Positions 32,253 to 54,957 of a stretch of 64,000 nucleotides of DNA are shown here, piece after piece. Origin of the DNA: Pandoraea aquatica. Its GTDB lineage: Bacteria > Pseudomonadota > Gammaproteobacteria > Burkholderiales > Burkholderiaceae. Numbering within the stretch: position 1 is the first letter of the stretch; each line of letters begins with the position of its first letter. The stretch lies in contig NZ_CABPSN010000003.1 of NCBI RefSeq assembly GCF_902459565.1, forward strand, positions 186,001-250,000, written 5' to 3'. A program made the translations under genes and the position numbers. The notes under the pieces were generated by a model. The model saw nothing but the letters and a program-made list of their open reading frames with translations, did no database searches and was not told the origin of the DNA.

Positions 32253-33095
32253 ATGGACTTGTTGCTGGCGCTCAAAGCCGTCATTCTCGGTGTGGTTGAA
32301 GGCCTGACCGAATTTCTGCCGATCTCATCGACCGGGCACCTGATTCTGGTCGGCAGCCTGCTCGACTTCAACGACGAGAAGGGCAAGATCTTCGACATCG
32401 TGATTCAGTTCGGCGCGATTCTGGCCGTGTGCTGGGAGTTTCGCGCGAAGATTGCGCAGGTCGTGTTCGGGCTGGGCAGCGATGCGAAGGCGCGTCGCTT
32501 CGCGGTGAACGTGATCGTCGCGTGCGTGCCCGCCATCGTGCTCGGGCTGCTGTTCGGCAAGCACATCAAGGCGGTGCTGTTCAACCCGCTGGTGGTGGCG
32601 ACCGCGTTCATCGTCGGCGGCGTGATCATTCTACTGGTCGAGCGTCATAACCGTCGCAACGTCGAGGCGGGCAAACTGCCGCGTGTGAATTCCATCGACG
32701 AGCTGTCGACGCTGGACGCCCTGAAAGTCGGCTTCGCGCAGTGCCTCGCGCTGGTGCCGGGCACCTCGCGCTCGGGCGCGACGATCATCGGCGGCATGAT
32801 GTTCGGGCTGGAGCGTCGTGTGGCGACCGAGTTCTCGTTCTTCCTCGCGATCCCGATTCTGTTCGGCGCGACGATTTACGAACTGTACAAGTCGCGCTCC
32901 ATGCTGGAAGTCGCGGACTTCGGTCTGTTCGGCATCGGTTTCGTGTTCGCTTTCATCAGCGCGTTCATCTGCGTGCGCTGGCTGCTGCGCTACATTGCGT
33001 CGCACGACTTCACGGCGTTCGCCTGGTACCGCATCGTGTTCGGTATCGTGGTGCTGGTGTCGGCCTACAGCGGGCTGGTCGTGTGGGCGGACTGA
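32253..33095 (+). CDS. uppP: Undecaprenyl-diphosphatase
   Basis: Polytopic phosphatase of 280 residues that recycles undecaprenyl pyrophosphate to the monophosphate used for peptidoglycan, O-antigen and glycosylation carriers. The signature [17 protein letters not shown] near residue 17 and the catalytic [15 protein letters not shown] near residue 168 are both complete. The family is also known as BacA (bacitracin resistance). A terminator follows. Confidence 0.97.
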
Positions 33096-33187: not shown

Positions 33188-33985
33188 TCAGCCGCGCTTG
33201 CGGAAGACCAGATCCCACACGCCGTGACCGAGGCGCAGGCCGCGGTTCTCGAACTTCGTCACGGGACGGTAATCCGGACGCGGTGCGTAATCGGCCGCCG
33301 TGTTCTCGAGCGACGCTTCGCCGCCGAGCACTTCGAGCATCTGCTCGGCATATTCCTGCCAGTCCGTCGCGCAGTGCAGGTAACCGCCCGGCTTCAGACG
33401 CGAGGCGAGCAACGCCACGAACGGCGGTTGCAGCAGACGGCGCTTGTGGTGACGCTTCTTGTGCCACGGATCGGGGAAGAACACGTGCACGCCGTCGAGC
33501 GAGCCTTCCGGGAGCATGTGCTGGACGACTTCCACAGCGTCGTGCTGGATGATGCGCACGTTCGAGAGCGGCGTCGTGCCGATGAGCTTGAGCAGCGCGC
33601 CCACGCCCGGCTCGTGCACTTCCACGCCGAGGAAATCGTCGTCCGGACGAACCTTCGCGATGTGCGCGGTGCCGTCGCCCATGCCGAAGCCGATTTCCAG
33701 AATGCGCGGTGCGTCGGCGCGATCGAAGGCGGCGGGCCAGTCGAGCGTTTGCGCCGCATACGGCAGCATGAACTTCGGGCCGAGTTCTTCGAAGGAGCGC
33801 TTCTGCGCTTCCGAGCTGCGTCCCGCGCGGCGCACGAAACTGCGGATGCGGCGCGGGTGCGCGACGCCGTCCGGGCCGACGTAGGTGTCGTCGTCTTCCG
33901 AAGGATTCGTTTGCGACGCGTCGAGTTCAGCGTCGTCGTGGGCCGGGAGCGAATCGTCGGCCGGCGGTTGTCCGTGGTTCGTCAT
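33188..33985 (-). CDS. trmB: tRNA (guanine-N7-)-methyltransferase
   Basis: Makes m7G46 in tRNA. The 265-residue protein has the SAM loop [15 protein letters not shown], then [11 protein letters not shown], and the family signature [16 protein letters not shown]. The first 45 residues are a variable acidic extension. The ATG at 33985 starts MTNHGQPP; the frame stays open to 34072. No Shine-Dalgarno sequence precedes the ATG, and a terminator-like hairpin ends 6 bp upstream of it. Confidence 0.95.
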
Positions 33986-33991
33986 GGAAAC

Positions 33992-34016
33992 AAAAAGCCG
34001 TCTGGAACGACGGCTT
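33992..34016 (-). terminator. Terminator-like hairpin just upstream of trmB
   Basis: Read leftward: AAGCCGTC-GTTCCA-GACGGCTTTTT. It would end the transcript of the DUF3348-DUF802-OmpA-DUF2894 operon, yet its T-run stops only 6 nt before the trmB start codon, so it may also act as a trmB attenuator. Confidence 0.75.
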
Positions 34017-34199
34017 GTCGAGGGAGACTTCGGCGGGTGGTGCGTACAGCGCCCAACACGATGATTTTTCAAAGGATTTTCCCGCGCCTTGGCGGCGGGA
34101 ACGGGCTCGATTATCCACCGGAACCGCGTGCGCTGGCAAGTTGGCGCACGCTTCGCGTCCCGGCGTGATGCTGTCTGACATCACTAGCGCGCGTGGCCG

Positions 34200-35060
34200 T
34201 CAGCGAGCCTTGGCGCGCGACGGCTTGGCGCTCGCCGCCACGCGCGCCGCGCTTTTGTTGCCGAAGACGCCCGTCGTTTCCATGTCTTCGAGCCAGGAGA
34301 GGGCATCGGCGTGACGCAGGAAGTGACGCAGGTAGTCGGGCGACACGTCGTGCATGAGCGAGAGCGCGCGATGCACGAGATGGCTGGAATTGAGCGGTCC
34401 CGCGTTTTCGGGCACCTGCGCGAGCGACTGGCGCAGATTGCCGTCGGTGCTCAGCTTCGACCACGTTTCGCGGAAGTATTCGAGGACGTCGAGGTCTTCG
34501 AACGCGTCGTCCGTCGCGATGACTGTCGGCGTGATGGCGACGGGACTCGGCGCGGGTTTGGCGACGGTGCGCTTCGCGGATGCAGTGGACGTTGTGGGTG
34601 AGGGCGTGAGCGTGTCGGGGCGGCTCGCCGTGGGCGACGTTGTCGTCGGCTGAGCGCTGCGTGTCGGCTTCGATGTAGCAGGTGATGTCGGCCGCTCACC
34701 CGCACCAATCCGTCGCGTGATGTCTGCGGTCAGCGTGACGAGCGGCGACGCCACACGTGATGCTGCGGGATCGTCGGCGGAGGTCTTTGCATCGGCGAGC
34801 GACTTCGCGAAGCCATCTACCAGCACCTTCACGCGCGCTTCAAGCACGCGCCGCACGTCGCCCCGATAGGTGAGCATGCGTGTGCAAAGCGCTTCGATGC
34901 GATGAAAGCGCGCCGGGTCGCGCTTGTCGGCACCGGCTTCACGCCATGCCGCGAGTTGCGCGGTGGTCGGATCGATGGCAACGACCGGATCGGCCTGTGG
35001 CACAGCCTGCGTGCCGTCTGTGGCGTCTTCGTTCTCCAGCGGAGGCATCTGCACACTCAT
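34200..35060 (-). CDS. DUF2894-like protein (fourth gene of tailed-stator operon)
   Basis: A soluble protein of 286 residues from the ATG at 35060; starts at 35093 or 35168 would overlap the OmpA gene. The N-terminal half is helical (AQLAAWREAGADKRDPARFHRIEALCTRM). A Thr/Pro/Ser-rich linker spans about residues 125-195. The C-terminal part contains YFRETWSKLSTDGNLRQSL and a Lys/Ala-rich end. I recognise it as the DUF2894 protein that follows DUF802 and OmpA genes in Burkholderiales. Function unknown; no helicase or nuclease motif is seen. Confidence 0.8.
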   Translation of the reverse strand: MSVQMPPLENEDATDGTQAVPQADPVVAIDPTTAQLAAWREAGADKRDPARFHRIEALCTRMLTYRGDVRRVLEARVKVLVDGFAKSLADAKTSADDPAASRVASPLVTLTADITRRIGAGERPTSPATSKPTRSAQPTTTSPTASRPDTLTPSPTTSTASAKRTVAKPAPSPVAITPTVIATDDAFEDLDVLEYFRETWSKLSTDGNLRQSLAQVPENAGPLNSSHLVHRALSLMHDVSPDYLRHFLRHADALSWLEDMETTGVFGNKSAARVAASAKPSRAKAR

Positions 35061-35070
35061 CGCCGCACCG

Positions 35071-35748
35071 TCACGCTTTTGGTTTGTCAGCATTGCCGGC
35101 ATTACCGGCACTGCTACGCGGCATCGGCGCGATTTCCACGCGGCGGTTCTTCGCGCGTCCGGCTTCATCCGAGTTGGACGTCACCGGCTGTTCCGCCCCG
35201 AAGGCGGCCGAGAACACGGAGGACGGCGGCACCCCGGCGGCGATCAGTTCGCGTGTGACGGTCAGCGCCCGCTGTGCCGACAACTCCCAGTTATCGGCAA
35301 AGCGACGGTTCGTCTCGCGCACTTGCTGGTCGTCGGTGAAGCCGCTGACCATGAGAATCTCGTCGCTCACGCGCAGATAGGCGGCCAGCGGCGCGGCCAG
35401 ACTGCGCAGCACTTCGCGGCCCTGCGGCTGCAACTGGTCCGAGTTCAGCGCGAAGAGCACGCTGCCGCTGATACCGATGCGACCGTTCACGAGCGTCACA
35501 CGGCCACCTGCGAGCGGACCGGCGAGCGCTTTCTCAAGCGTTTCGCGGCGCTGCGTCTCGACCTGACGCTCCTTCACTTCGCGCTCCAGCTTCGCGGACA
35601 GTTCGATCTGCACACCGATCACGCCGAGCATGATGAGCACGAACGCGCCGAGCATCACCGACATCAGATCGCCGAAGACGGCCCACGTCGGCGCGGCGGC
35701 GCCTACGTCGCCCGCGTCCGCGATATCCGCGTCGAATTCGTCTCTCAT
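35071..35748 (-). CDS. MotB/ZorB-like OmpA-family protein
   Basis: A 225-residue protein with one N-terminal membrane helix (about 24-45, FGDLMSVMLGAFVLIMLGVI) that carries Asp27 at its start, where MotB and ZorB hold the ion-carrying aspartate. A short coiled coil follows (about 50-75), then an OmpA-type peptidoglycan-binding domain (FALNSDQLQPQGREVLRSL; NWELSAQRALTVTRELIAAG; GRAKNRRVEIAP). Its ATG overlaps the DUF802 stop by 4 bp, consistent with stoichiometric co-translation. The likely partner is the MotA-like DUF802 protein; an ion-driven stator is inferred from the architecture. Confidence 0.9.
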   Translation of the reverse strand: MRDEFDADIADAGDVGAAAPTWAVFGDLMSVMLGAFVLIMLGVIGVQIELSAKLEREVKERQVETQRRETLEKALAGPLAGGRVTLVNGRIGISGSVLFALNSDQLQPQGREVLRSLAAPLAAYLRVSDEILMVSGFTDDQQVRETNRRFADNWELSAQRALTVTRELIAAGVPPSSVFSAAFGAEQPVTSNSDEAGRAKNRRVEIAPMPRSSAGNAGNADKPKA

Positions 35749-38700
35749 GCTGCCACGCTACCCGGTTGCATACCTGCTTGCGCGGTTTGCGCGGCTTGCG
35801 AGCGCGCCTGTGCGAGTTCCTGAAGGTTCTCGAGGATCTGCTTTTGCGACATCACGCTCAGCTCGACCACCTCGCGTGCCTGTGCGACGTAGTACCCGAG
35901 TTGTTCGTCGCTGCGCGCCATCGACTTGTCGAGCGCGGCTTCGATGCGTTGCAGATGCTCCAGCAGTTGCGTGTTCGATTCGCCGAACGACTGCACGGCG
36001 GCACCGAAGGCGTCGCCAAGGCTGGCGATTTCCACCACGCTGCCGGTGACCTGCGCGGACGCTTCCGTGAGCTTCTCTGTCTGCGCGGCGATGGCGTCGC
36101 CGAGGTTCGCACTTGCGCGTTCCAGCAGTTGCGCGGAGGTCGTGACGAGTTCGTCGACGGCGGCACGTTGTTCGTTGCCCGCGTGCTTGACGGTGTCGAG
36201 CAGCGTGCCCAGCGTGTCGAGCAGTCGCGAGCGTTCTTCGAGCATGGCGTTATCGCGGACCATGCTGTCCGAGAGCTTCTGACGCAGTTCGCCGATGATT
36301 TCGGCGGCCGCCTTCGGGGCTTCCGACGCGGTCTGCACCAGACGCGAGATCTCGGCGATGGTGTCGCTGGCATTGGCGCGCGTCTGTTCGGACATCTCCA
36401 GCGCGGTGCGGGCGAGCGTGTCGCAGATCGCCTGTTGCTGGCAGGCGGTTTGTGCGCCGACCTGCTGCCATTCCGAGCGCAGCGTGGACAGCGTGCCTTC
36501 GAGCGTTTCCGTCCAGACGGACAGGCGCTGCGTTTCGCGCTCGGCGGTGGCGTCGTGATGCGCAGTGTTGGCGGCGCTGAGCGCTTGCAGCAGCGAGGCG
36601 CTGTGTTCGGTGAAGGCGCTGGTCGTCGCCGCCACGAGTTCTTGATTGCCGTCGGCCAGACGCTCGCTCGTGCGCGTGTGTTCGGCGATGGCGTCGCGCC
36701 AGGTCTGGGCGACGTTGGAGGACGTCGAGTCCAGTTGCGTCGAGACGTTTTGCAGCAACTGCGACGCCCGCGATTCGAACGTTTCGGCGAAGTGCGCGAG
36801 GGCGGCGGCGAGATCGGTCGCGAGCGCGTCGTTCGCCGATTGCTGCGCGACGAGGACCTGCTTCCATTCGCCCGACACGACCGCAGCCGTCTCCGAGACA
36901 CTATGCATTGCGCCTTCCGTGCGCTGGCTCACGCCATCGATCAGATGCGCGGCACGTTGCTCGAAGGTGTCCGTGAAGCGAGCGAGGGCGGCGGCGAGTT
37001 CGGTGTTCAGGGCGTCGTTGGCCTGCTTTTGCAGCCCGATCGATTGCTCCCACGCCGATGCCACGCGCTCGTGTGCGCCGCTGACGTTGCCGCTCGCGGC
37101 GTCGAGCTTGGTGGCGACATCCGCCAGCAAGGCGCTTGAGCGGGCTTCGAACGTCTGCGCGAAGCGTTCCAGCGCTGCGCCGAGCGACTGCGTGAGCGTG
37201 TCGTGCGACTGCTGCTGTTGGCCGAGCGCTTGCTCCCACGCTTGGGCGACGGTGGTCTGCGCTGTGGCGATGCTACCCGTGGCGCTGTCGAGACGCGTGA
37301 TGACGTCGCCGAGCAGGCTCGCGGAGCGCGTCTCGAACGACTCGGTGAATTGCGCGAGCGTGGCACTGAGTTCTCTGGCGAGCGTGTCGTTGGTCTGCTG
37401 CTGCGTGGTGAGCGACGTTTGCCATGTCTGCGCGATGCCCGCGTGTGCCGCGTTGACCTGTCCCGTTGTGGCGTCGAGGCGTGCGGCGACATCGTCGACC
37501 AGCTTGGCCGAGCGCGTCTCGAAGGTCTGTGCGAATTGCGTGAGCGCCGCGCCGACGTTTTCAGCGAGCGCATCGTTGGTGCGTTGCTGTGTGGCGAGCG
37601 AGGTCTCCCATGTCTGGGCGACGTTCGCATGGGCGGCGTCGACGCGTCCTGTCGTGGCCTCCAGGCGAGCCGCGACATCGTCGACCAGCTTGGCCGAGCG
37701 CGTCTCGAAGGTCTGCGAGAAGTGCGCGAGTGCGGCGCCGAGGTTTTCAGCGAGCGCGTCGTTGGTGCGTTGCTGCGTGGCGAGCGACGATTCCCACGTC
37801 TGCGCAACGCCGGTTTGTGCGCTGCTGACCTGTGCCGTCACGGTTTCGAGGCGTGCGGCGACATCGTCGACCAGTCGTACCGAGCGTGTCTCGAACGTCT
37901 GAGTGAAGTCGCCGAGTGCCGAGCGCAGATCGGTCGCGAGCGATTCATTGGTGCGCAACTGAGCGTCGAGCGAATCCTTCCAGACGCTGGCGACGCGCGC
38001 GGTCGTGGCTTCGAAGCGATCGGACAGGCCGTCCATACGGTCTTGCACGGCGCTCGACACGGTCTGATGCCACGTGGCGGTTTCGCGTGCGAGGCTCGCC
38101 ATCGTCGCTTCGACTTCCGGACGAATCGCTGCACCGGCGGCGCTTGCCGTGGTGGCGACGCTGTCCTTCAGATACTGCTGCATCGCGCTGGTGAGTTGTG
38201 CGTAAGACGCATCCGTCTTGGCGTGCAGGGCGTCCTGATTGGCGACGAGGCGTTCGCCGAGCGCCTGACTCTGGCGCTCCATCGCGGCCATCATGTCTTG
38301 CAGACGGTCGACGAGTGCGGGCATGACCGTCGCTTGCTGCTGAAGCAGTTGCAGCGTGGTTTCGCGTTGATGTTGCTGCGAGAAGCCGCGCAGTGTCGTG
38401 ACGATGCGTGCGTCGAGCGATTGCACGACCTGTGCGCGCTCTTTACGTGCGAGGGCGGCGAGCAGGCCGAGCATGGCCGACGTGGCGACGCCTGCGACCG
38501 ACGTGCCGAACGCGAAGCCGAGTCCCTTGACCGGCGAGGCGAGCGAGGCGCGAATCGCTTGCAGATCGGTCGCGCCTTCGAGCGCGATGCCGGTGCCACG
38601 CAGCGTGGCCGCCATGCCGAGGAAGGTGCCGAGCATACCGAGCAGCACGAGCAGGCCGACGAGATAGGGCGTGAGTGCCGGGCCGGGCAGGCCGACGCGT

Positions 38701-39011
38701 TCGCCTTCCACGCGCAGACGCACGGCGGTGCGCAGGCCGGCCGGCAACGTCTCAAGCCACGAGGGCAGGGACGCGGGGGCTGCGTTTAAACCGGAGACGG
38801 CGTTGGCGAGGGCGTTCGTCGACTGATGAAAGCGTTTGAGTTCGAGCGCGCCGAAGAGGTAGACCGCTGCAATCAGCAGGGCGACGGCGAGCGCGAGGGT
38901 ATTGGTGCCGGCATAGCCGATGGCGATCCAGCCGACGACGGCAAGACCTGCGACAAAGGCAATGAGATCAACGAGGTAGCGTGGCAAACGGGTCATGTTG
39001 TCCGGGTTCAC
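35745..39011 (-). CDS. DUF802 protein: MotA/ZorA-like membrane core with giant repeat tail
   Basis: A 1088-residue protein from the GTG at 39011 (ATG at 38996 is an alternative). Four membrane segments lie near residues 13-32, 34-52, 110-128 and 164-187. The last two read LVGLLVLLGMLGTFLGMAA and GFAFGTSVAGVATSAMLGLL, the TolQ/MotA/ZorA inner-helix pattern. The rest, about 900 residues, is predicted cytoplasmic helix, including about seven 62-residue repeats (roughly 350-785) with the core TFETRSAKLVDDVAARL and VAQTWE. It sits between DUF3348 (overlapping) and the MotB-like gene (ATGA overlap). The layout matches ZorA, a stator with a long tail, but the sequence family is DUF802. Confidence 0.88.
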   Translation of the reverse strand: MNPDNMTRLPRYLVDLIAFVAGLAVVGWIAIGYAGTNTLALAVALLIAAVYLFGALELKRFHQSTNALANAVSGLNAAPASLPSWLETLPAGLRTAVRLRVEGERVGLPGPALTPYLVGLLVLLGMLGTFLGMAATLRGTGIALEGATDLQAIRASLASPVKGLGFAFGTSVAGVATSAMLGLLAALARKERAQVVQSLDARIVTTLRGFSQQHQRETTLQLLQQQATVMPALVDRLQDMMAAMERQSQALGERLVANQDALHAKTDASYAQLTSAMQQYLKDSVATTASAAGAAIRPEVEATMASLARETATWHQTVSSAVQDRMDGLSDRFEATTARVASVWKDSLDAQLRTNESLATDLRSALGDFTQTFETRSVRLVDDVAARLETVTAQVSSAQTGVAQTWESSLATQQRTNDALAENLGAALAHFSQTFETRSAKLVDDVAARLEATTGRVDAAHANVAQTWETSLATQQRTNDALAENVGAALTQFAQTFETRSAKLVDDVAARLDATTGQVNAAHAGIAQTWQTSLTTQQQTNDTLARELSATLAQFTESFETRSASLLGDVITRLDSATGSIATAQTTVAQAWEQALGQQQQSHDTLTQSLGAALERFAQTFEARSSALLADVATKLDAASGNVSGAHERVASAWEQSIGLQKQANDALNTELAAALARFTDTFEQRAAHLIDGVSQRTEGAMHSVSETAAVVSGEWKQVLVAQQSANDALATDLAAALAHFAETFESRASQLLQNVSTQLDSTSSNVAQTWRDAIAEHTRTSERLADGNQELVAATTSAFTEHSASLLQALSAANTAHHDATAERETQRLSVWTETLEGTLSTLRSEWQQVGAQTACQQQAICDTLARTALEMSEQTRANASDTIAEISRLVQTASEAPKAAAEIIGELRQKLSDSMVRDNAMLEERSRLLDTLGTLLDTVKHAGNEQRAAVDELVTTSAQLLERASANLGDAIAAQTEKLTEASAQVTGSVVEIASLGDAFGAAVQSFGESNTQLLEHLQRIEAALDKSMARSDEQLGYYVAQAREVVELSVMSQKQILENLQELAQARSQAAQTAQAGMQPGSVAA
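36677..37966 (-). repeat. Seven imperfect 186-bp direct repeats inside the DUF802 gene
   Basis: These encode seven consecutive 62-residue units, each with a core like FETRSAKLVDDVAARLEATT followed by AQTWE. Units 2 and 3 are the most alike; the last is shortened. The register is kept at both DNA and protein level, so the tail may vary in length by recombination. Confidence 0.85.
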
Positions 39012-39774
39012 TAACGTTTTCGCCGGGAGTCACCGAGGCGAGGGCGGCAATCAGCCCTTCGATCGGTTCCAGGCGGATATCCAGTTCTGCGAGCAAAACG
39101 CTCTGCATATCCCGGTGGAATGTGTCTAGCCAGGTGCCGGCGGGCGCGAGCGGCGGTGCGCCGGGCACGCGCGGGGCCGCCATGGCGGCCTGCTCGGTGT
39201 CGCGCAGACGCACGAAGTGCCCTTCGAGCAGATTCGGCACGCTCGCGAGCAGTGTGCGCTCACGTGCGTCCATCACGCGCTCCATCACGGCGTCGACGCT
39301 GGCGAGGCGCGCGGCGTCCGGCGACATCGTGGCCAGTTGCGCGCGGAGGCGGGTGCGCAGGGCGCTGATCGCCGTGTCCATCGTCTGCTGCGACGTCGCG
39401 TAGCGCTGGCGATACGCCGGAAACTCCGCGAACGAGGCTGCCCGTTGACGCTCGGCAGCGCTCAGTGCGCGGATCTGCCCGCCGGGCGCGGCCGCCAGTC
39501 CGCAATCGCGGGCGATGGCGGCGGCGAGGTCGACGCGCACACGTGCCAGTTCAGCCGCCGGGCTCTGCGCGGCCGAACGCGCGCCGGGCGTTGCCGCCGG
39601 CGGGTTGGCTTTGAGAGCCGACGACAAAGCGATGGCGTCGGTCCAGCCCAGCCACTGGCTCAGACGGTCCGAGAGCGACGGCGCGGCCTCCGGGGGCGCG
39701 AACGAGCTCAGGCGGGCCAGCGAGCGTATGAGTGTTGGGGCGCTGATAACGGGACGCCGGGACACTTGCACCAT
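38968..39774 (-). CDS. DUF3348 protein (first gene of tailed-stator operon)
   Basis: A soluble, mostly helical protein of 268 residues. Segments include APTLIRSLARLSSF at the N-terminus, YRQRYATSQQTMDTAISALRTRLRAQL in the middle, and FHRDMQSVLLAELDIRLEPIEGLI near the end. I recognise it as the DUF3348 partner that precedes DUF802 genes. It overlaps the start of DUF802 by 29-44 bp, so the two are translationally coupled. No enzymatic motif or membrane span. Function unknown. Confidence 0.8.
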   Translation of the reverse strand: MVQVSRRPVISAPTLIRSLARLSSFAPPEAAPSLSDRLSQWLGWTDAIALSSALKANPPAATPGARSAAQSPAAELARVRVDLAAAIARDCGLAAAPGGQIRALSAAERQRAASFAEFPAYRQRYATSQQTMDTAISALRTRLRAQLATMSPDAARLASVDAVMERVMDARERTLLASVPNLLEGHFVRLRDTEQAAMAAPRVPGAPPLAPAGTWLDTFHRDMQSVLLAELDIRLEPIEGLIAALASVTPGENVSEPGQHDPFATLPR

Positions 39775-42850: not shown

Positions 42851-42924
42851 TGGAGCGGGCGATGGGAATCGAACCCACGGCTCTAGCTTGGGAAGCTAGG
42901 GTATTACCATTATACGACGCCCGC
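42851..42924 (-). tRNA. tRNA-Gly (anticodon CCC), island integration target
   Basis: A full cloverleaf on the minus strand. The acceptor stem is GCGGGCG / CGCCCGC, the anticodon stem CTAGC / GCTAG encloses TTCCCAA (anticodon CCC), and the T arm has GTTCGATTC. The CCA end is encoded at 42851-42853. The 5' half (42886-42924) is repeated exactly at 61158-61196, so the gene was rebuilt by island insertion. Confidence 0.95.
42886..42924. repeat. Left attachment site (attL), 39-bp direct repeat
   Basis: Identical to 61158-61196. It covers tRNA positions 1-39, from the 5' end through the anticodon loop; the adjoining bases differ on both sides. Confidence 0.95.
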
Positions 42925-42934
42925 GAAGAGTGGC

Positions 42935-42964
42935 ATTTTACGCGGGGTTTGGGGATTTTGGCAA
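42935..42964 (-). promoter_or_regulatory. Island-borne promoter of tRNA-Gly
   Basis: Read leftward: TTGCCA, an 18-bp spacer, TAAAAT, then 10 bp to the mature tRNA 5' end. It lies inside the island, replacing the original promoter now at the right end. Confidence 0.65.
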
Positions 42965-43105
42965 TCGTGGGATCTGGTAGCTGGCGTGAAAAGTGTATCC
43001 ACTCGGGATGAGGTTGGTGGCGTCGCTGCGGGCGTGACGCGTCACCGGCTGTAGGAGGCTCAGGTATTCTTGCGGTTCCAATGAAAAGACAAGGAGCTGC
43101 TGTCT

Positions 43106-44710
43106 GTGACGAACGAACCCCACATCGACACCGGTAACCTGCTCACAATATTAGGAGTTATTGCGGCGGTTTGGGCAATCATTCCTGCCAATAGCCGACT
43201 CCGATTTAGATTGAGCGTGACATGGCCAGACTGGGGCGTCGTCATCGCGGCGTTCCTGTCGGTGCATTATCTGGTTTTCGAGAAAGCGCTGCGTGAGGTC
43301 GGGCTCTATCATAGCTTCGGGCCGTGGAGATGGGGCCTAGACTCCGGGAGCGCCGTCTACCTCATTCTGCTTGCAGTAGGTATCTACCTTCTGGTTCGTG
43401 CACGCTCACCCAAATTGGCTAAACAAAACGTCGAAATATTCAGCAAGCTGGTCGACAGCCTTCTGCTGACCAAGCGATACGACGAGCTCGTTTCTCTCGT
43501 CGAGCCACAACTGCCGAAGTTACTCAGGCTAAGTCAGCGCCGCCCACCGTTGGCGAGGATGGCGTCACGAATGAGGCCCAAACCCATCATCGACATCGAA
43601 GCAATTCTGCGCGGAGCACCTCGTCGCCGCGAGTCGGCCGTCAAACGTTACATCCGGTCGGCGCTAGGTGCATTCGAAGAGAAAATCATGGCACGTAATC
43701 GTGCTGGTCGGTACGCGAAGGAAATCATCAAGAGCATTTCCACTTCCCCTGCGCTCGTGGCTCACCTTGCGGTGGTACATCCTTATTTTTGCCTGAGGCT
43801 GCTAGGGCGCCCCGAGGCCGTACGTGAAGAATTCATCGATCTATTCGTGAGCGCGCTACTGTCTGATCGAAACAGCCGAATATTCGTTGAGTTAAAAAAC
43901 AACCAGAATTTGAATGGTGCTCATCGTCTCTCCTTACCAGAATCGAATCGCATCCTGTGCTTTTTCTTCAAGGACGTATCTGTCGCGGCCCAACATGGGT
44001 TGTATCGGGCGATCGGCGAGGCTGTGTGTATGAGGCTGGACGAAGACGATCGAATGGCTGCGTTGTACAACCGCTCATTGGGATACTACGCCGACGTGGG
44101 GAAATATCACTGTCCGGTGCATGCCGGAATCAAGCTCTTTGAGATCATGATTCACGAGGGTATTCATCAGGGGCAGCAAGATCACCTGTGGCTCTTCTAC
44201 TTCACCCACTTTACGGAGAAGATTCTCGATCAGATGCGTCATCGCACACAGGAAGATGAGTATCACGAATGGCCTACACCTTTCTATTACCTGTTGTACG
44301 AGATCATTTCTATTACTTCAAATTGGATCGAGGATTGCACGAACGTCAAGGTTGAAGATATTCCTTCGGCGAAGCGTGAGGAGGACGGGTTCGATGTATT
44401 TTATATATCGAAGCAGGCAACTATTGCTCTCGGAACGATCATGCAGGACATCGTTCAATCACCGAAGTTGACGGATCAGTTCAAGACGTATGCGCTGGAG
44501 ATCGCGCTGCGACGTTTTCTGCGTATTGCGAATAAGCCACGAGCGGCCGAGGTTGCGAACGACTTCACCACGGCCCTTATCGTTGGGGCTCATTTGTCGA
44601 CTAAGATCGAGTATCGCCGCGCCCTCAAAGGAGTGTTTGACAAACTCGATCATGTGCTTAGACATCAGTTGCCGACGTTCGAGAAGGCCCTTACCGATTC
44701 TCTCCAGTGA
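43106..44710 (+). CDS. Unknown membrane-anchored helical protein
   Basis: A 534-residue protein that I do not recognise. The GTG start follows AAGGAG. Three N-terminal hydrophobic segments (about 12-28, 44-58 and 86-102) anchor a large cytoplasmic, mostly helical domain with basic patches near residues 145-215. One HEGIH stretch (H350-H354) matches the HExxH zinc-protease pattern by spelling, but its surroundings are not protease-like. It is the first gene of the island and convergent with a small XRE-like regulator. Membrane anchor plus unknown soluble domain would fit a defence effector, but nothing proves that. Confidence 0.75.
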   Translation: MTNEPHIDTGNLLTILGVIAAVWAIIPANSRLRFRLSVTWPDWGVVIAAFLSVHYLVFEKALREVGLYHSFGPWRWGLDSGSAVYLILLAVGIYLLVRARSPKLAKQNVEIFSKLVDSLLLTKRYDELVSLVEPQLPKLLRLSQRRPPLARMASRMRPKPIIDIEAILRGAPRRRESAVKRYIRSALGAFEEKIMARNRAGRYAKEIIKSISTSPALVAHLAVVHPYFCLRLLGRPEAVREEFIDLFVSALLSDRNSRIFVELKNNQNLNGAHRLSLPESNRILCFFFKDVSVAAQHGLYRAIGEAVCMRLDEDDRMAALYNRSLGYYADVGKYHCPVHAGIKLFEIMIHEGIHQGQQDHLWLFYFTHFTEKILDQMRHRTQEDEYHEWPTPFYYLLYEIISITSNWIEDCTNVKVEDIPSAKREEDGFDVFYISKQATIALGTIMQDIVQSPKLTDQFKTYALEIALRRFLRIANKPRAAEVANDFTTALIVGAHLSTKIEYRRALKGVFDKLDHVLRHQLPTFEKALTDSLQ

Positions 44711-44730
44711 TACACATCGACGCGACGTGC

Positions 44731-44988
44731 TCAGCTACGCGCAGTGGATAACCAGATGCGTTGTTGGTACAGGTTGACTAGTTCAACAATATCGATCCCA
44801 AGAGCGTCCGCGATATCAACGAGTTCGGGTAGGTCGAGACGGTACTCGCCGGACTCGTACTCGATGACGAACGACTCGGGCCTATTGAGGTGCGACGCGA
44901 GTTCTGCGGTCGTGAGATGCTTGGCGTGACGGGAGTGAATGAGGATTTCGCCAAGGATAGCAAGTTGGTGCGTGTGATGGATGGTCAT
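44731..44988 (-). CDS. Small XRE-type helix-turn-helix protein
   Basis: An 85-residue protein with an HTH_XRE domain (TTAELASHLNRPESFVIEYESGEYRLDLPELVDIADALG). It is related to the protein at 48340 and to the decayed copy at 46041. Its stop lies 20 bp from the stop of the convergent membrane-protein gene. A regulator of a neighbour is likely. Confidence 0.85.
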   Translation of the reverse strand: MTIHHTHQLAILGEILIHSRHAKHLTTAELASHLNRPESFVIEYESGEYRLDLPELVDIADALGIDIVELVNLYQQRIWLSTARS

Positions 44989-45152
44989 TGGGTACGATCT
45001 CCGTGATGGTGATCGTACCGTCCGGCATCTCGGTTACAGACGCAACGAGACGTCGGTTGCAACCGGCCTTGAACGGACATTCGTCCTATCCGAAATTTGT
45101 GACGCGGAGGGAATAGGAGATGTCATGATGGCAAACAATCGGGGTACCGAAG

Positions 45153-45929
45153 ATGTTGGGAACTTGCGCTTTGTGCCAGAAAAATGCCGATCTTCAGGAT
45201 AGCCATTTGATCCCAAAATGGGCATACAGAAGGGCTTGCGGCGTTCAACTGGAGCGCGCGCCAGCCCCGGTATATGTTGCAAACGGGAGTGCAGTTCTCT
45301 CCAACGCGCAGACAAAACGGCACCTCTTGTGCGAAGACTGCGAACAGCGTTTCTCAAAAAGTGAAGACTATCTGGCATCGCTAACTTTGCCGGACGGCGA
45401 GCAGTTCAAATTGTTCAGTGAAATCACGCGATGTGACACACCGGGCAACGTGTTAGCCCGTCTCGATCGGTCTGAGCATGCCGCTCACATCGCATACTTC
45501 GCAGCCAGCGTAATGTGGCGCGGCTGTGTGATGACTGGCGATTGCAAGCTGGGATTATATGAGTCGGCCTTCCGCCAATACTTGCTTGGGAAGGCGTCGT
45601 TCCCCACTGAGGGAGTGCTTTCCATTGCATTAATTGAGCATTCGCCGGACGTTGATGCACGAGGATGGGTTTCGGAACCGACCTCGGTCAAAGTAGGCAT
45701 GATTTGGGTCCACGGTTTTTTGCTCGCAGGCCTTGCTTTTCGATGCTGGCTTGGGAAGGCAGTCCCCTCCAAATGGCAGCAGATATCACTGACCGGGCCC
45801 AATATGCCGAAATACGTTTCAATCCTTAAGCCCAAGGAGTGTGCGGATTTCCTTGCGGCCGCTGAACTCGCTGGAACTGCTAAGCCTCGTGGGAAGTTGG
45901 CGAAGTCTTCGCTCGCGGGGCCGTGTTGA
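45153..45929 (+). CDS. HNH-like zinc-binding protein of unknown function
   Basis: A 258-residue protein. The N-terminal CALCQ, DSHLIPKWAYRR and LLCEDCEQRFSKSEDYL form a CxxC...H...CxxC layout like the treble-clef core of HNH nucleases, but the downstream catalytic His/Asn is not evident. The rest is mixed alpha/beta. The ribosome binding site is weak; a better AGGAG at 45115 serves a short out-of-frame ATG. It is convergent with the XRE pseudogene, repeating the effector/XRE arrangement seen at 43106-44988. A DNA- or RNA-targeting role is conjecture. Confidence 0.72.
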   Translation: MLGTCALCQKNADLQDSHLIPKWAYRRACGVQLERAPAPVYVANGSAVLSNAQTKRHLLCEDCEQRFSKSEDYLASLTLPDGEQFKLFSEITRCDTPGNVLARLDRSEHAAHIAYFAASVMWRGCVMTGDCKLGLYESAFRQYLLGKASFPTEGVLSIALIEHSPDVDARGWVSEPTSVKVGMIWVHGFLLAGLAFRCWLGKAVPSKWQQISLTGPNMPKYVSILKPKECADFLAAAELAGTAKPRGKLAKSSLAGPC

Positions 45930-46040
45930 AATTGCCCCACTGCACTGAACGGAGGCGTTTAGACATCTCTAGCGACCAGTTCTGGTCGAGCCATAAGTCG
46001 GTCACGTTGACGGATAGCCTGCCGTATCGCAAGTGGCCGT

Positions 46041-46240
46041 TCAGATTGTCCGGTGCTGAAGGTTGAGATGTTCGATCATGGCGATTCCAAGTGCAGCAGC
46101 GCTATCAATGACGTCGCGAAGATCAAGCTGGTATTTTCGTGACGCAGGGCCAGGAACAAGCGACTCAGGCTTGGCAAGGTCGCCGGTAAGCCGCGGTTCC
46201 GAGTGGAGGCAAGTGGTTCGGCGAAGACGTGGTTATGCGG
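46041..46240 (-). pseudogene. Decayed XRE-type regulator
   Basis: Read leftward, one frame ending at the TGA at 46043-46041 gives LAKPESLVPG, then RKYQLDLRDVIDSAAALGI and a short tail, aligning with the C-terminal two thirds of the XRE protein at 44731. The N-terminal third survives only in another frame (LASTRNRGL) with lost sequence and no start codon. So it is a frameshifted, partly deleted third copy. The surrounding 45930-46349 holds nothing else that I can support. Confidence 0.7.
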
Positions 46241-46349
46241 AAAAATTATGAGGTGTGACCCTGATGCGGAGAGTCGCGCCATCCGCGCTTCTAGGGGGAA
46301 TGCGAGTGCTAGATTTGCGCGGCACCGGAAACGTCGCTCACAATTGATT

Positions 46350-48233
46350 TCACTCGAAGCGCGCTTCGAAGCAATCAAGGACGCGAGTCAAGCGCTCGAC
46401 AGCCACATCGGGAAGTGATCCTGCCGCGACGGGGGTACAGCCACACGCTTCTGCCAAATACCATCCGATCTGCTTTTTTGAAGGCTTGCCGGGTAGTTCC
46501 TGGCGACGCTGGATCTCTTCGAGCGTCTCTTTGCCAAGGAGTTTCTCCATGGCGTTGCCTGCGAATGATTTATCGATGTCACCAAGCGTCGTAACGACAG
46601 TGTCATCAAAAAACCAATCGTCCTTGTATTTGCTGGCAGCCTTCCTTCCCTCGGCATCGTCGTCAAGCAAGATCGAAAACTTTTGGCCTTGTCCAAGCAT
46701 TTGGCTGATGATGGGGCCGGAAGCGCCCGAACCGACGCCCGGGATAATGTTGAAGCGATAATCTTTCTTCGAAAGCTTTGCTGCTAATCTTAGCGCGTAA
46801 TAATCAGATACACCCTCAACAATGAGGTATGGGGCGGATCCTACGATCTCTGGCGGAACGTATTCGAGTTTCTCTATTACCGGCTGGAAATAGCTAGATC
46901 GCGTTGGAAATTCGGAGACGAATTGACGGTAAGGGGTTGCCGTTATTTTTGTGGGTTTTGTGTCAAGACCAAAACTGTCCTCTTCGTCGTAGTCGAGGGC
47001 CGAATTTTCCACGATGTACGCAGCACCAAGCCACCGGGGATTTATCATGTGGTGGCTGTGAGTGGAATATATTATCTTGTTTCCATTTGAGGCAATTTTT
47101 GCAAAACTTGTCAATAACTCGGCTTGAGCCTTTGCATGAAGATTAGCTGCAGGTTCGTCAAAAATGAATATGGTTTTTCGTTGTTTCGTTTTCTTAAATC
47201 CAGTGAAAAGAAGAAACGAAAAAAACCATCTAAATCCGAGTGACCTCTCGTTGATTGCGAAGCGTGATTCCCCATCGGAAACATAGAACGCCGCGTATGG
47301 TAGGTCACCCTTCTCCGTGTCAATATTCCACTCTACGCTAATTGTTTTTGCGGAAATTGCTCGTTGGAAGACGCGCTGCCAACTTCCTAATACTTCTCTC
47401 GTGATGGCGGCGGAAATTTTCTGAAAAACGGAGTCTATTGGCCCTTTGTCAGGGCTTCCGATGAAAATTGACCACCAGACAGGAGTATCCTCGTTTTTCT
47501 TGAACTCCTCAATTCTTGCGCAGACGTGCTTGCTAAGCTCCAATCCTTCGCCGAGACTATCCAATACATCCTGAAATACAAAACGATAGTGTCGATTTAT
47601 GGGTGTTTCATCGTCATGTTCGCGTAAGTAGATGCGCGCTGGCATATCGACGAGAAACGTTGGAAAGTAAGAGACTTGTTGAAGTTTTTGGTGAATTTTG
47701 TTTACACATTTCAACCAAATGTCAACTGCGCCAGATTCTTTTGTGGGTCTAGTGTAGGGTGAGAAAGTTTTTGATCGCGCAGTCTTGGTTTGAATGCTAA
47801 TGCTCCAATTATTCCAAGTTTCTTTGAGTGCGCTATCTTCAAAGATGTATTTTTTTGTTGCTGTAATCGTTTTTTTTAAAGGTGCCGCATTGATTGTAAG
47901 TTTTTGACTCTTCGCTATTTCCTCTAAATCGGAAATATCTGTGCTGTCAAGAAGGATTTCGGCGGAGATTTTTATTTCGCCAGTAAATGCAGCCTTCTTG
48001 TGCATCGGGATTAGGCCGAGAGCAGGGACTTTTGCGTTTGGCCCTTCAAACAAACTGGCAACAGAGCGGTCGCCACTGATGAAGTGGGATAGTGCCTCCA
48101 GAATGGTGGTCTTTCCACTTTCATTAAGGCCAATCAGTGTTAGGACAGGGCTGGTGGTTTTTACCTCAAGGTCAATCTCGACTTTCTCTATACCCTTGAA
48201 ATTTTCTATTGTGAATTTTTGGATGGTAGGCAT
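46350..48233 (-). CDS. OLD-family ATP-dependent nuclease (AAA ATPase + TOPRIM)
   Basis: A 627-residue protein. The ABC-type ATPase half has Walker A GLNESGKTT at residues 35-43, a signature-like segment, and Walker B IFIFDEPAANLHAKAQAEL, with STHSHHMINP as the H-loop. The C-terminal TOPRIM domain starts near residue 469: YLIVEGVSDYYAL (Glu473) and ILLDDDAEGRKAA (Asp525-527). This is the class of OLD proteins to which GajA of Gabija belongs, but no GajB (UvrD-like) helicase is next to it. Markedly AT-rich compared with the chromosome. A stand-alone anti-phage nuclease is likely by family. Confidence 0.9.
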   Translation of the reverse strand: MPTIQKFTIENFKGIEKVEIDLEVKTTSPVLTLIGLNESGKTTILEALSHFISGDRSVASLFEGPNAKVPALGLIPMHKKAAFTGEIKISAEILLDSTDISDLEEIAKSQKLTINAAPLKKTITATKKYIFEDSALKETWNNWSISIQTKTARSKTFSPYTRPTKESGAVDIWLKCVNKIHQKLQQVSYFPTFLVDMPARIYLREHDDETPINRHYRFVFQDVLDSLGEGLELSKHVCARIEEFKKNEDTPVWWSIFIGSPDKGPIDSVFQKISAAITREVLGSWQRVFQRAISAKTISVEWNIDTEKGDLPYAAFYVSDGESRFAINERSLGFRWFFSFLLFTGFKKTKQRKTIFIFDEPAANLHAKAQAELLTSFAKIASNGNKIIYSTHSHHMINPRWLGAAYIVENSALDYDEEDSFGLDTKPTKITATPYRQFVSEFPTRSSYFQPVIEKLEYVPPEIVGSAPYLIVEGVSDYYALRLAAKLSKKDYRFNIIPGVGSGASGPIISQMLGQGQKFSILLDDDAEGRKAASKYKDDWFFDDTVVTTLGDIDKSFAGNAMEKLLGKETLEEIQRRQELPGKPSKKQIGWYLAEACGCTPVAAGSLPDVAVERLTRVLDCFEARFE

Positions 48234-48339
48234 GTATTCCCCGTGGAATTAAGCTTCTCGCCTTTAACATATGATGCATAGTACTACGCTTTAATGTACG
48301 TCTAGTATCAGAGGCGCGAGCGGCTCGCAGTGCGTGTCG

Positions 48340-48588
48340 TTACGCTCCCTCAGTCGAGGTTCGGTAGCGCTTGATAAAAAGCAGCACATCTATCTCCAAC
48401 GCTGCTGCAATCTCGATGAATTCGCAAAAATCGAGGCGTCTTTCCCCCCGTTCGTACTTCGACACGAACGACTGAGTCTTCCCAAGTCTCTCCGCAACTT
48501 CCACCTGCTGTAGCCCTTTCTCCTTGCGGGCATCCAACAACATCTGACGGAACACTTGGTACTTCGGATCATGAATAGGATTCGGCAT
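48340..48588 (-). CDS. XRE-family helix-turn-helix regulator
   Basis: An 82-residue protein with a complete HTH_XRE domain (GLQQVEVAERLGKTQSFVSKYERGERRLDF). It lies 106 bp upstream of the OLD gene in the same direction, so it may control it. It is homologous to the protein at 44731 and to the pseudogene at 46041. Confidence 0.92.
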   Translation of the reverse strand: MPNPIHDPKYQVFRQMLLDARKEKGLQQVEVAERLGKTQSFVSKYERGERRLDFCEFIEIAAALEIDVLLFIKRYRTSTEGA

Positions 48589-48723
48589 CCGGTCATTCTT
48601 GAACCGGATATAGACTATGCCATAACCTGTTGTGGATTATCCCAAGGTGGACTATGATCGCCTGCGAAGACCGGACGGTCGATCCGGTGCAACTGGCGCG
48701 ACTTGGCGTCATCCGGGGGATAT

Positions 48724-48972
48724 ATGTCTGATGTCTTGCTGGTCATCATCTGCGCGGGATTCGCGTTCTTCGCAAAATCACAAGGGCGCAATTACTGGTG
48801 GGGCATCGTCCCCGCGCTCATCAAGGCAGCATTCCAGACTTACGCCCAGCTTGGCGGCGGTCCGTCTGACACCAAGGCATGGCTGTACTCAGCCGTCATC
48901 ACGTACATCATCTATTGGGTCGTCGGCAAAGCGGTGAAAGGGGCGAATGCTGGCAAGGAGTCTGCCGAATGA
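48724..48972 (+). CDS. Small membrane protein
   Basis: An 82-residue protein with two hydrophobic helices (about 2-17 and 57-72) and a short basic C-terminus. The ATG at 48724 follows GGGGGAT. It overlaps the next gene by 4 bp (ATGA). Family unknown; holin-like size, but without lysis partners that I can identify. Confidence 0.7.
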   Translation: MSDVLLVIICAGFAFFAKSQGRNYWWGIVPALIKAAFQTYAQLGGGPSDTKAWLYSAVITYIIYWVVGKAVKGANAGKESAE

Positions 48973-49313
48973 CGGCCCCGATTCTCCCTCTTCGGGGGCT
49001 AACGCGTGCCGTGTTGCCGAAGCTCCTGTCTGTTGGGGCCGCAATTGCCTTGTCCGGCTGTGGCAATGACCCGTCCGAGAGCGCCGTCCAGAACGCATAT
49101 TTCCGATGGAATCTGAATCTTCAGTCCAAATTCCATCGCGTGTCTGATAGTGAGCGAGACGACCTGCGAGAGCAGTCAAAGCAGTTTTACGTGAATGAGT
49201 GCAAAAAGATCAGCGACACCTACTACATCTGCGACATCAAGGGCGAACGGCTCCTGTGGCAGTTGCAGAGGTTTGATGGGGACTGGCAAATCAGCGGGTT
49301 TCAGCATCGATAG
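48969..49313 (+). CDS. Putative small lipoprotein
   Basis: A 114-residue protein with a signal sequence ending in the lipobox ALSGC (Cys31). The mature part contains two more cysteines (NECKKI, YICDI), which could form a disulfide, and a C-terminal beta-rich segment LLWQLQRFDGDWQISGF. Coupled to the small membrane protein upstream. Function unknown. Confidence 0.75.
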   Translation: MTAPILPLRGLTRAVLPKLLSVGAAIALSGCGNDPSESAVQNAYFRWNLNLQSKFHRVSDSERDDLREQSKQFYVNECKKISDTYYICDIKGERLLWQLQRFDGDWQISGFQHR

Positions 49314-49370
49314 GGCGCGCGGTATCCGCACGTAGCGATCCATCGACAATTCCTCGACCTTGAGTGCAGC

Positions 49371-50105
49371 ATGACTGATCCATCGAAGAATGAGCTGACA
49401 GAAATGGTGGAGCGGCTGATTAATGCAGCCTTTGCAGCCGTCTATGTATTCATTTTCATTGCGGCACCGATCTACGGAACGCTGAAGCTGAAGAAAGCGC
49501 TACGGCACCTGCGAACTGCCACCGACAAGAGTGAGCGAAAGTACTGGCGAGACGAACTGCGCATGGCGTGTTGCATCGTCTACATCTCCGTTGTGATCTA
49601 CGTCCATATCTTCCAAGACCTTTTCTTGCTTCCGTTGAGCTTCGAGAACAAGGCAAGAGTCATGCATTGGGTGGACGCCGTGCTCGGATTGCCGGGGGCG
49701 TTGATGTATGCCGTGGTGCTGCACCGGCGAGCATTGGACTACGACGTACAGGACTTTCTCGTTGCCGCGTTGCTCGTGTCCGGTGCAGCGCTCCTCTACT
49801 ACATCGCAAAATCGTCACTGAAGGTGAACGGCGGCGTTAATGAAGACGGTGTGTGGGTTCCGAGCCGCGCTGAATCTCAACGCAGGTGGGCGAAATTCGA
49901 GGAGGAAGAAGCCGAGTCGAGAGCCATCACAAAGCGGATGATTGCGCACGAAATGGATGACCCTCGAAGTGATCGAGAGCGATGGAACACTCTCTCGAAA
50001 GCACAGCAGCAACGTGAACAGGAGCAGTGGGAGGCAGAGCGAGACGAGCTGTATCGATTGAGTGATGCGTGCCCACGGTCGTCGTACTTCGACAAAAAGT
50101 CCTGA
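49371..50105 (+). CDS. Unknown membrane protein with charged C-terminal coil
   Basis: A 244-residue protein with about four hydrophobic segments in the first 150 residues (near 20-37, 65-87, 105-120 and 130-147). It ends in a Glu/Arg/Gln-rich helix (KFEEEEAESRAI; SKAQQQREQEQWEAERDEL), predicted cytoplasmic. Third gene of a rightward group 48724-50810. No family recognised. Confidence 0.75.
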   Translation: MTDPSKNELTEMVERLINAAFAAVYVFIFIAAPIYGTLKLKKALRHLRTATDKSERKYWRDELRMACCIVYISVVIYVHIFQDLFLLPLSFENKARVMHWVDAVLGLPGALMYAVVLHRRALDYDVQDFLVAALLVSGAALLYYIAKSSLKVNGGVNEDGVWVPSRAESQRRWAKFEEEEAESRAITKRMIAHEMDDPRSDRERWNTLSKAQQQREQEQWEAERDELYRLSDACPRSSYFDKKS

Positions 50106-50146
50106 CGCATGTTGTCTGTGGCGGTGAATCCCGGGATGGTGCTTGC

Positions 50147-50398
50147 ATGGAAACACCGTGCGACATCATGGACTACACTTCGCTGACTGCCGAACAACTT
50201 CGATCCCTCATCGCCGAAATTATCGAGACCCGTGGCGACTCACTGTCTCGGACCAAATTCACCGACGAGTTCCTGTCGCTGTTGGAGGATGTGCCGGGAC
50301 GAGAAGGTGACGAATGCTCGGCGGCATTGGTCGACGTCGCTTGGGTGGCGTACACCGACGTTGCACCTCATAACGACATAGATGCCGATAATCATTGA
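50147..50398 (+). CDS. Small hypothetical protein
   Basis: An 83-residue acidic protein (METPCDIMDYTSLTAEQL onward), possibly starting at the second ATG at 50168. Its stop overlaps the start of the next gene by 17 bp, so translation is coupled. Size and acidity resemble immunity or antitoxin proteins, but no family is recognised. Confidence 0.6.
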   Translation: METPCDIMDYTSLTAEQLRSLIAEIIETRGDSLSRTKFTDEFLSLLEDVPGREGDECSAALVDVAWVAYTDVAPHNDIDADNH

Positions 50399-50810
50399 GC
50401 ATATTGATGCGATAGCCCGAGCAAAGGGGCGCGACGCGTTGTTCGTGGAGTTCCGCCGGATCGATGGCAACGGCAAGGGGCAGGAAATTATTGCGGCTCA
50501 CGAGTGGAGCAGTTGGCACCCACGCGAAAAAGTGATCGACTGGTTGGATGCAAAAGGAATAGGCTGGAGCCCGTGCGGTCACATCGCGTCGACCAACATG
50601 CAGATGTCGTATCGAGGCCAAATCTACATCGATATCCGATATGAGCCGAGCGACGCTCTCTATGCCGAACTAGAGGGGTTTCTTGAGGGGCCAAACGGCC
50701 CCGTGATCAACGCCGGAGTTCGTTTCTACTGTCTGCCCTACGAGGCTGCACTGGCGAATGCAGCCCACGATTCACCGGGATTCTGGGAAAAGTGGGCCGA
50801 GGAATTCTAG
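50382..50810 (+). CDS. Hypothetical protein
   Basis: A 142-residue, slightly acidic alpha/beta protein with segments EIIAAHEWSSWHPREKVIDWL and QIYIDIRYEPSDALYAELEGFL. No signal peptide or membrane span. It is coupled to the small ORF upstream and lacks its own ribosome binding site. Not recognised. Confidence 0.7.
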   Translation: MPIIIEHIDAIARAKGRDALFVEFRRIDGNGKGQEIIAAHEWSSWHPREKVIDWLDAKGIGWSPCGHIASTNMQMSYRGQIYIDIRYEPSDALYAELEGFLEGPNGPVINAGVRFYCLPYEAALANAAHDSPGFWEKWAEEF

Positions 50811-50887
50811 GGTTGCTCACATATCTTCGAGCCACCGATTTCCCGATTTATACGCCTTCTATAACAGATGGATTGTGGACTATTTCG

Positions 50888-52033: not shown

Positions 52034-52073
52034 GGTGATGTCCTTGAAAAAAAGAATCAATGGACATCACCAT
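52032..52073 (-). promoter_or_regulatory. Inverted repeat covering the int start codon
   Basis: Perfect 12-bp arms, 52032-52043 and 52062-52073, separated by 18 bp. In the int mRNA the 3' arm GGACATCACCAT includes the ribosome binding region and the ATG, so a hairpin would hide the start. It could equally be a protein operator. Confidence 0.7.
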
Positions 52074-52128
52074 CCTTGCTGACTACGCGTATGACAACAG
52101 CTTTCGCCCTTGCCAGTTGGCGTACGGA

Positions 52129-52554: not shown

Positions 52555-52644
52555 TTTGCAGTGCCTTAAAAAGGACGGCGTCACAAGGCCACGCTGTCGC
52601 TGGTGGACGCCGTCCATTGTTCGGAAGTGGAGGGGGGCGCAGGA

Positions 52645-54852: not shown

Positions 54853-54887
54853 GATAAATAAAATAAGGATTCCTAAATTATTGATGG

Positions 54888-54917: not shown

Positions 54918-54957
54918 TTGCGATCTATTTCTGTCGTTTACGTGATTTCGCTTGTGT

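Follow-up and report, generated by a model that had tools for sequence, protein, structure and literature searches.

The name Zorya type III was introduced by Payne et al. in 2021 for zor gene pairs flanked by genes coding for DUF3348 and DUF2894 proteins, of which 6,401 cases were counted (PMC8565338). According to the same paper, the type III system of Stenotrophomonas nitritireducens, when carried by E. coli, lowered the plaquing of at least one phage and, at multiplicities of less than 0.1, guarded cultures against phage PVP-SE1. Mariano et al. in 2025 called the way in which the three Zorya subtypes are distributed typical of anti-phage systems, and 5:2 ZorA:ZorB complexes have been solved for Zorya types I and II (PMC11890865). 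The subject of the present analysis is a 64,000-nucleotide stretch of the Pandoraea aquatica genome (RefSeq assembly GCF_902459565.1, contig NZ_CABPSN010000003.1, forward-strand positions 186,001 to 250,000), referred to below as the window, in which four overlapping minus-strand genes at 34200-39774 code, in this order, for the DUF3348, DUF802 (ZorA), OmpA-domain (ZorB), and DUF2894 proteins. We put the probability that this operon of a Pandoraea species is a Zorya type III system, working by the motor-and-tail mechanism proposed below, at about 0.88. Its features are as follows:

38968..39774, minus strand: DUF3348 protein, 268 amino acids (Pfam E value, 5e-79; ZorF in Payne 2021, ZorG3 in PADLOC-DB)
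35745..39011, minus strand: ZorA of type III (DUF802), 1088 amino acids counted from GTG (Pfam E value, 6e-89)
36708..38006, minus strand: tandem array of 62-residue (186-bp) units, ZorA tail residues ~336-768
35071..35748, minus strand: ZorB of type III, 225 amino acids, OmpA domain at residues 98-202 (Pfam E value, 8e-18)
34200..35168, minus strand: DUF2894 protein, 322 amino acids as listed (Pfam E value, 1e-49; ZorG in Payne 2021, ZorF3 in PADLOC-DB)

All four components of Zorya type III are present, and each is strongly matched by its PADLOC type III model (ZorG3, 6e-89; ZorA3, E value of 0; ZorB3, 1e-111; ZorF3, 8e-98). The locus has co-located genes for ZorA, ZorB, DUF3348, and DUF2894, a ZorB with the membrane Asp and a predicted OmpA domain, and a ZorA with a putative motor core and tail. 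The coordinates and Pfam matches bear out the four-gene overlapping operon described in a first-pass annotation of the window, including the 4 bp (ATGA) common to the ZorA and ZorB genes. Judging from the starts of its relatives, ZorA more likely begins at the ATG at 38996, five codons inside the listed GTG, and DUF2894 probably starts at its 26th codon, at 35093, which would give a protein of 297 amino acids; an identical 297-residue protein (P0121) is found in the database. All 57 Burkholderiaceae loci and 43 of the 44 others show the order DUF3348-ZorA-ZorB-DUF2894, which makes 100 of 101 loci, all of them picked for having DUF3348; the sole exception is a locus cut by a contig end. The letters F and G are swapped between the two naming schemes, in that DUF3348 is ZorF and DUF2894 is ZorG in the text of PMC8565338, but ZorG3 and ZorF3, respectively, in PADLOC-DB (PDLC00652-00658); the same text prints zorBC where zorAB was apparently intended.

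ZorA is predicted to consist of a MotA/ExbB-type membrane core and a cytoplasmic helical tail of ~880 residues. In a simple hydropathy scan, its hydrophobic stretches fell at residues 7-62 (two helices merged), 105-140, and 163-190, in agreement with the four N-terminal membrane helices ascribed earlier to DUF802, with a marginal fifth stretch at 988-1006. ZorB has a single such stretch at 17-55 (marginal flank included), and the DUF3348 and DUF2894 proteins have none. A search of the PDB with the single ZorA sequence gave no match. The profile of ZorA residues 1-230 gave seven rows at E values of 1 or less, the sole significant one being chain C of 8VVN, a type I ZorA (E value, 1.3e-4); this match supports the MotA/TolQ/ZorA type that the first-pass annotation had read from the inner helices. 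Thr129, Thr170, Ser171, and Ser178 are unchanged in all 14 sequences of the same 1-230 alignment and are aligned with Thr or Ser residues in the type I core (8VVN). The NCBIfam model antiphage_ZorA_2 also matched residues 119-402 (E value, 4e-10), under the curated cutoff of that model. The ZorB profile matched chain B of 8VVN over residues 8-201, membrane helix included, with an E value of 3e-6; it found 68 PDB sequences at E values of 0.01 or less, and the 60 that were listed are mostly MotB, PomB, and OmpA-type peptidoglycan-binding domains. The proposed MotB-like protein with an Asp27-bearing helix and an OmpA domain is thereby borne out, peptidoglycan binding by the domain at residues 98-202 being a prediction. 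Lack of conservation of Asp27 among homologues had been named beforehand as an observation that would count against a motor; this residue is unchanged in all 13 aligned ZorB sequences, which come from ten genera.

The two partner proteins resemble no enzyme: family-profile scans matched neither DUF3348 nor DUF2894 to any enzyme family, and searches of the PDB with their profiles found no credible relative (best E values of 0.17 and 0.037, respectively), the matches being designed scaffold, apolipoprotein, and coiled-coil chains. The AlphaFold2 model of DUF3348 is all-helical, with a mean predicted local distance difference test score (pLDDT) of 79 and a predicted template modeling score (pTM) of 0.74. 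The model of DUF2894 (mean pLDDT, 61; pTM, 0.34) has helical parts at residues 67-155 and 224-298 joined by a low-confidence linker, which is presumably flexible; most of the invariant columns sit in the C-terminal part. The two proteins may be non-enzymatic partners of the ZorA tail. They had been suggested earlier to be effectors in place of ZorC, ZorD, and ZorE. The replacement itself stands, but "effectors" is too strong a word for proteins that match no enzyme family and that are proposed in PMC8565338 to regulate ZorAB. In separate scans, the DUF2894 profile also exceeded its cutoff in the control genome of Corynebacterium glutamicum, which is unexpected for a Zorya III protein, and two weak DUF3348 matches (loci L131 and L132, genomes G388 and G258; E values of 5e-6 and 4e-5) fell in open frames of 460 and 453 amino acids in another family of the order, possibly representing a distant DUF3348 relative within a longer protein.

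Compared with the base form of Zorya type III, the ZorA protein of the window, at 1088 amino acids, has a longer tail, and no feature of the locus places it outside the type. Zorya type I (ZorA-B-C-D; 8VVN, PMC11890865) shares with it, by profile, the ZorA core and ZorB, as well as the conserved Asp and Ser/Thr residues and a long tail, but has ZorC and ZorD where this locus has DUF3348 and DUF2894. Zorya type II (ZorA-B-E; 8VVI) has the same type of ZorAB core, and the ZorA2 models match at 8e-10 or weaker. The ZorC, ZorD, and ZorE families were absent from the matches of the four operon proteins and of the ten nearby open reading frames (ORFs) that were scanned. The flagellar stators MotAB and PomAB likewise combine a four-helix MotA-like core with an Asp-bearing MotB-like helix and an OmpA domain, in contrast to this locus without its long tail and with other partners. 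Among the 25 of 40 matches that were listed, the flagellar MotB and MotD models stayed under their curated cutoffs and PRK09040.1, a "hypothetical protein" model, scored above its own.

By analogy with the solved Zorya I and II complexes, five ZorA and two ZorB subunits would form an ion motor in the inner membrane that is closed at rest. A phage that disturbs the cell wall would cause ZorB to grip the peptidoglycan, and ions passing Asp27 and the ring of ZorA Ser/Thr residues would then rotate the ZorA pentamer together with its tail, if type III behaves in these respects like types I and II. The tail is predicted, from the analysis described below, to form a single unbroken helical bundle with ~3.64 residues per turn; because it would be unbroken, motion or strain could reach tens of nanometers into the cytoplasm. 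For an extended tail that is helical throughout, the reach would be 75 nm in the base form and ~132 nm in the window. There DUF3348 and DUF2894 would act as non-enzymatic readers of the tail, with DUF2894 bridging its two helical parts by the flexible linker. What these two proteins finally act on is the weakest step of the scheme.

The tail of the window ZorA carries about seven copies of a 62-residue unit, in line with the ~900 residues of repeat-built helix noted on first inspection. At the DNA level, Tandem Repeats Finder reports the most alike part as a 186-bp array of 3.1 copies at 37324-37901. For comparison among genomes, ZorA lengths were counted from a fixed motif at residue 108, and a strong unit was defined by a local identity of at least 0.6, units being picked by the best autocorrelation. 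The main set of 80 named loci, minus six on short contigs and ten without the anchor motif, left 64; with 57 further loci and the window, 122 ZorA sequences were compared, some genomes having been fetched twice. A base form of ~599 residues from the motif is found in many genera, and longer forms consist of this base plus tandem units that are specific to particular lineages. Units of 62 residues in Pandoraea give lengths of 661, 785, 847, 909, and 971, some with indels of up to ~11 residues, and units of 87 residues in Cupriavidus, Paraburkholderia, and Caballeronia give 686, 773, 860, and 947 or 859, 946, and 1033. Units of 29 or 58 residues occur in some Paraburkholderia-like genomes, with others of 80 residues in presumed Burkholderia (g11), 69 in presumed Ralstonia, 33 in Caballeronia, 51 in one Paraburkholderia, and 102 in Achromobacter. 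Base length (590-605) was found in 19 of the 122 sequences, and 78 have a strong unit and a length within 12 residues of 599 plus whole units (46 exactly). One sequence with a strong unit misses the rule, at a length of 744, equal to 599 plus five units of 29. The other 24 lack a strong unit; the Pandoraea sequences among them are still within 8 residues of 599 plus whole 62s, with a unit identity of 0.44-0.56, and two Trinickia sequences are 55 short of the base. Lengths that the rule leaves unexplained come from two Achromobacter (977 and 1130), two Bordetella (843 and 905), and one Cupriavidus (748). Database proteins filed under the same species name, with names and start codons taken as filed, differ by whole units in Pandoraea cepalis (946 and 1008), Cupriavidus necator (958 and 1045), and Pigmentiphaga litoralis (1130 and 1217), whereas the Pandoraea soli pair (858 and 946) breaks the rule.

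The unit lengths share a helical register. Seven lengths taken as independent (29, 33, 51, 62, 69, 80, and 102) agree with a single pitch of 3.64 residues per turn (mean cosine, 0.973); with the pitch left free and a uniform null for unit lengths, none of 20,000 random sets equaled this fit, and 1 of 20,000 did when 55 was added. The eight lengths are not fitted by the heptad pitch of 3.5 (mean cosine, -0.18). At 3.64, the units of 29/58/87, 33, 51, 62, 69, 80, and 102 residues, together with the hold-out lengths 22 and 40 described below, lie about 0.1 turn or less from whole turns; the poorer fits are those of the 87 unit (cosine of 0.81) and of the weak period of 55 residues (cosine of 0.77). 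The hydrophobic pattern of 19 base tails, an independent measure, peaks at 3.64-3.65. A hold-out set was drawn from a different family and a small number of additional genera (44 loci, of which one lacked the anchor and one was cut by a contig end, leaving 42). Ten of its sequences are exactly 599 residues long and 16 fall within 593-601; 11 equal the base plus whole units, one (708) has a unit but departs from the rule, and 14 lack a strong unit. The hold-out units at an identity of at least 0.6 are 22, 29, 40, 58, 62, and 80; the lengths 40 and 22, which had not been strong units before, correspond to 10.99 and 6.04 turns (chance of 0.008 for two random lengths at this pitch), 22 having appeared earlier as a weak period. 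The hydrophobic peak of these tails was again at 3.64.

From this register we infer that the ZorA tail forms an almost straight rod without breaks; any functional tuning of its length is a guess. Tentatively, and with some doubt, type III ZorA can be pictured as a motor of the core genome whose drive shaft can evolve: each lineage would have lengthened or shortened its tail independently, by whole in-register units, since the rod would have to remain unbroken while its reach (~65 to 155 nm in the forms seen, if extended) is tuned to a cytoplasmic target, such as the location of the DUF3348/DUF2894 partners or of the nucleoid. A rather unlikely alternative is that the in-register units reflect nothing but the copying mechanism, arising by misalignment of ancient weak repeats that share the helical period, with no demand on register or length. 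Tails without strong units do show weak periods of 22, 33, and 55 residues, near whole turns, as copying would have it. However, the old repeats are just ~15-45% identical, offering little for homologous misalignment, and the arrays begin at different places in the tail (~290, 336, 413, 430, 450, and 488); since these places differ between lineages, the arrays arose more than once. The literature search found no paper on type III tail length, and the tail rule, like the near-core distribution described next, goes beyond what was found in print.

An unlikely alternative for the whole operon is that it is mainly a housekeeping envelope machine of Burkholderiaceae and Xanthomonadaceae, either a wall-stress sensor or a mechanical motor, with the anti-phage effect a by-product of over-expression. 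Its distribution speaks for such a role. Of the 32 genomes of the genus, 31 have DUF3348 and the same 31 have ZorB3, both being missing from one reduced genome of 1.2 Mb, compared with just 10 of these 32 for HSDR_N of type I restriction, a single control family at a single threshold; no statement of near-fixation in a genus was seen for Zorya type III. The family sample had DUF3348 in 171 of 249 genomes, that is, in 171 of 193 from eleven positive genera and in 0 of 56 from fourteen others. The positive genera are Pandoraea (30/31), Cupriavidus (26/29), Caballeronia (25/30), what we take to be Burkholderia (30/30), Trinickia (3/3), Paraburkholderia (24/29), what we take to be Ralstonia (15/16), and genera g25 (10/11), g8 (4/8), g15 (2/3), and g16 (2/3). 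The operon is rare outside the family, with 8 positives of 200 in the order sample (three from the own family and one under the cutoff) and 7 of 274 in the class sample (own genome included), and one other family, presumably Xanthomonadaceae, had 45 of 149. Against a housekeeping role, 10 of the 22 misses in the positive genera are in genomes exceeding 4.2 Mb, the other 12 genomes being of 4.2 Mb or less; these look like losses of the whole operon because DUF2894 was kept in none of the 22. DUF3348 was found in 27 of 72,556 plasmid records, all of 366 kb or larger, and in none of 50,697 phage records.

The position of the operon bears on the same alternative. It adjoins two conserved housekeeping genes, which lie outside the system:

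33188..34072, minus strand: trmB-type methyltransferase, downstream neighbor
32253..33095, plus strand: uppP/bacA

This neighborhood was found in 21 of 24 fetched Pandoraea loci, and the G+C content of the operon (0.655-0.674) is like that of its flank, next to a low-G+C island, as would suit a resident housekeeping gene cluster; against such a role, other genera have the operon elsewhere (0 of 33 loci beside uppP and trmB). Ratios of nonsynonymous to synonymous substitution rates (dN/dS) in 11 Pandoraea pairs were 0.02-0.08 for zorB, 0.05-0.19 for DUF3348, 0.06-0.38 for zorA, and 0.29-0.38 for DUF2894, compared with 0.10-0.30 for trmB and 0-0.21 for uppP (10 Pandoraea pairs each). The operon is under purifying selection, as strict on zorB and DUF3348 as on the neighbors, although looser on zorA and on DUF2894, which has the highest or nearly the highest dN/dS. 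Trees of the Zor proteins (690 columns) and of rpoB (1143 columns), each for 30 genomes and with low support at many deep nodes, recover the same main pairings inside main-clade Pandoraea but disagree between genera (distance correlation of 0.50). The Zor tree joins main-clade Pandoraea with Cupriavidus (support of 100) and the rpoB tree does not; because the two disagree on the position of Pandoraea, the operon appears to have moved between genera, which also argues against a housekeeping role. The small-genome Pandoraea G023 and G030 (loci L069 and L070) have a separate Zor lineage with a tail of base length and a protein difference of ~0.40 from main Pandoraea, as far as other genera. A recent mobile-element origin in this genome was rejected in view of the host-like G+C content and syntenic neighbors, and pure vertical descent in view of the Zor/rpoB conflict over Pandoraea and Cupriavidus and the separate G023/G030 lineage. 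The simplest reading is that the operon was transferred between genera long ago and has since been retained by vertical descent over a long time. Beyond the genomic evidence, the housekeeping explanation has to contend with the protection of E. coli by a heterologous type III system, as reported in PMC8565338, and with the subtype distribution described by Mariano et al. (PMC11890865).

The claim that the operon represents a separate tailed stator family outside Zorya is very improbable, even though its partners differ from those of Zorya I and II and its tail is long and variable, as the arrangement is already published (PMC11890865 and PMC8565338) and modeled in PADLOC as Zorya type III, and profiles link it to the ZorA and ZorB of types I and II. 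The underlying proposal in the first-pass annotation, of an ion-driven tailed motor that resembles Zorya, is anchored to peptidoglycan, and has DUF3348 and DUF2894 as partners, agrees with the profiles and the conserved residues; it was sound and independently reached, but not new, since Zorya type III was already in print.

Several observations count against the Zorya type III assignment with the proposed mechanism. The ZorA match to 8VVN is weak and limited to core segment 109-191; the DUF2894 model is poor, and the models cover single proteins. In contrast to systems with ZorD or ZorE, the operon gave no match to a nuclease or helicase family, which leaves the defense step unexplained. No phage assay of a Pandoraea copy and no paper joining Zorya and Pandoraea were found in the literature searched. 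Finally, the near-fixed distribution is unusual for a defense system and would allow for a different main function.

The low-G+C island (0.47-0.56) occupies positions 42851-61000 of the window and begins at a tRNA-Gly(CCC) gene ~3 kb from the operon. It includes the following genes:

46350-48233: AAA_15/OLD-type ATPase, 627 amino acids (best PADLOC match, AriA, 6e-32, covering a portion of the model), possibly another defense gene
50888-52060: phage-type integrase
52645-54852: Prim-Pol/D5 primase-helicase
57582-59147: serine recombinase
59144-60951: two RepB/ParB genes

The island ORFs at 43106-44710, 45153-45929, and 49371-50105 matched no Pfam family at 1e-5.

For the Zorya family, type III offers natural length variants, in which the same operon carries tails that differ by whole in-register units, and these variants make the choice between a rigid drive shaft and a floppy tether directly testable. 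The near-fixation of the operon in Pandoraea and in most of its large-genome kin means that survey counts of type III as a recently acquired defense may mislead.

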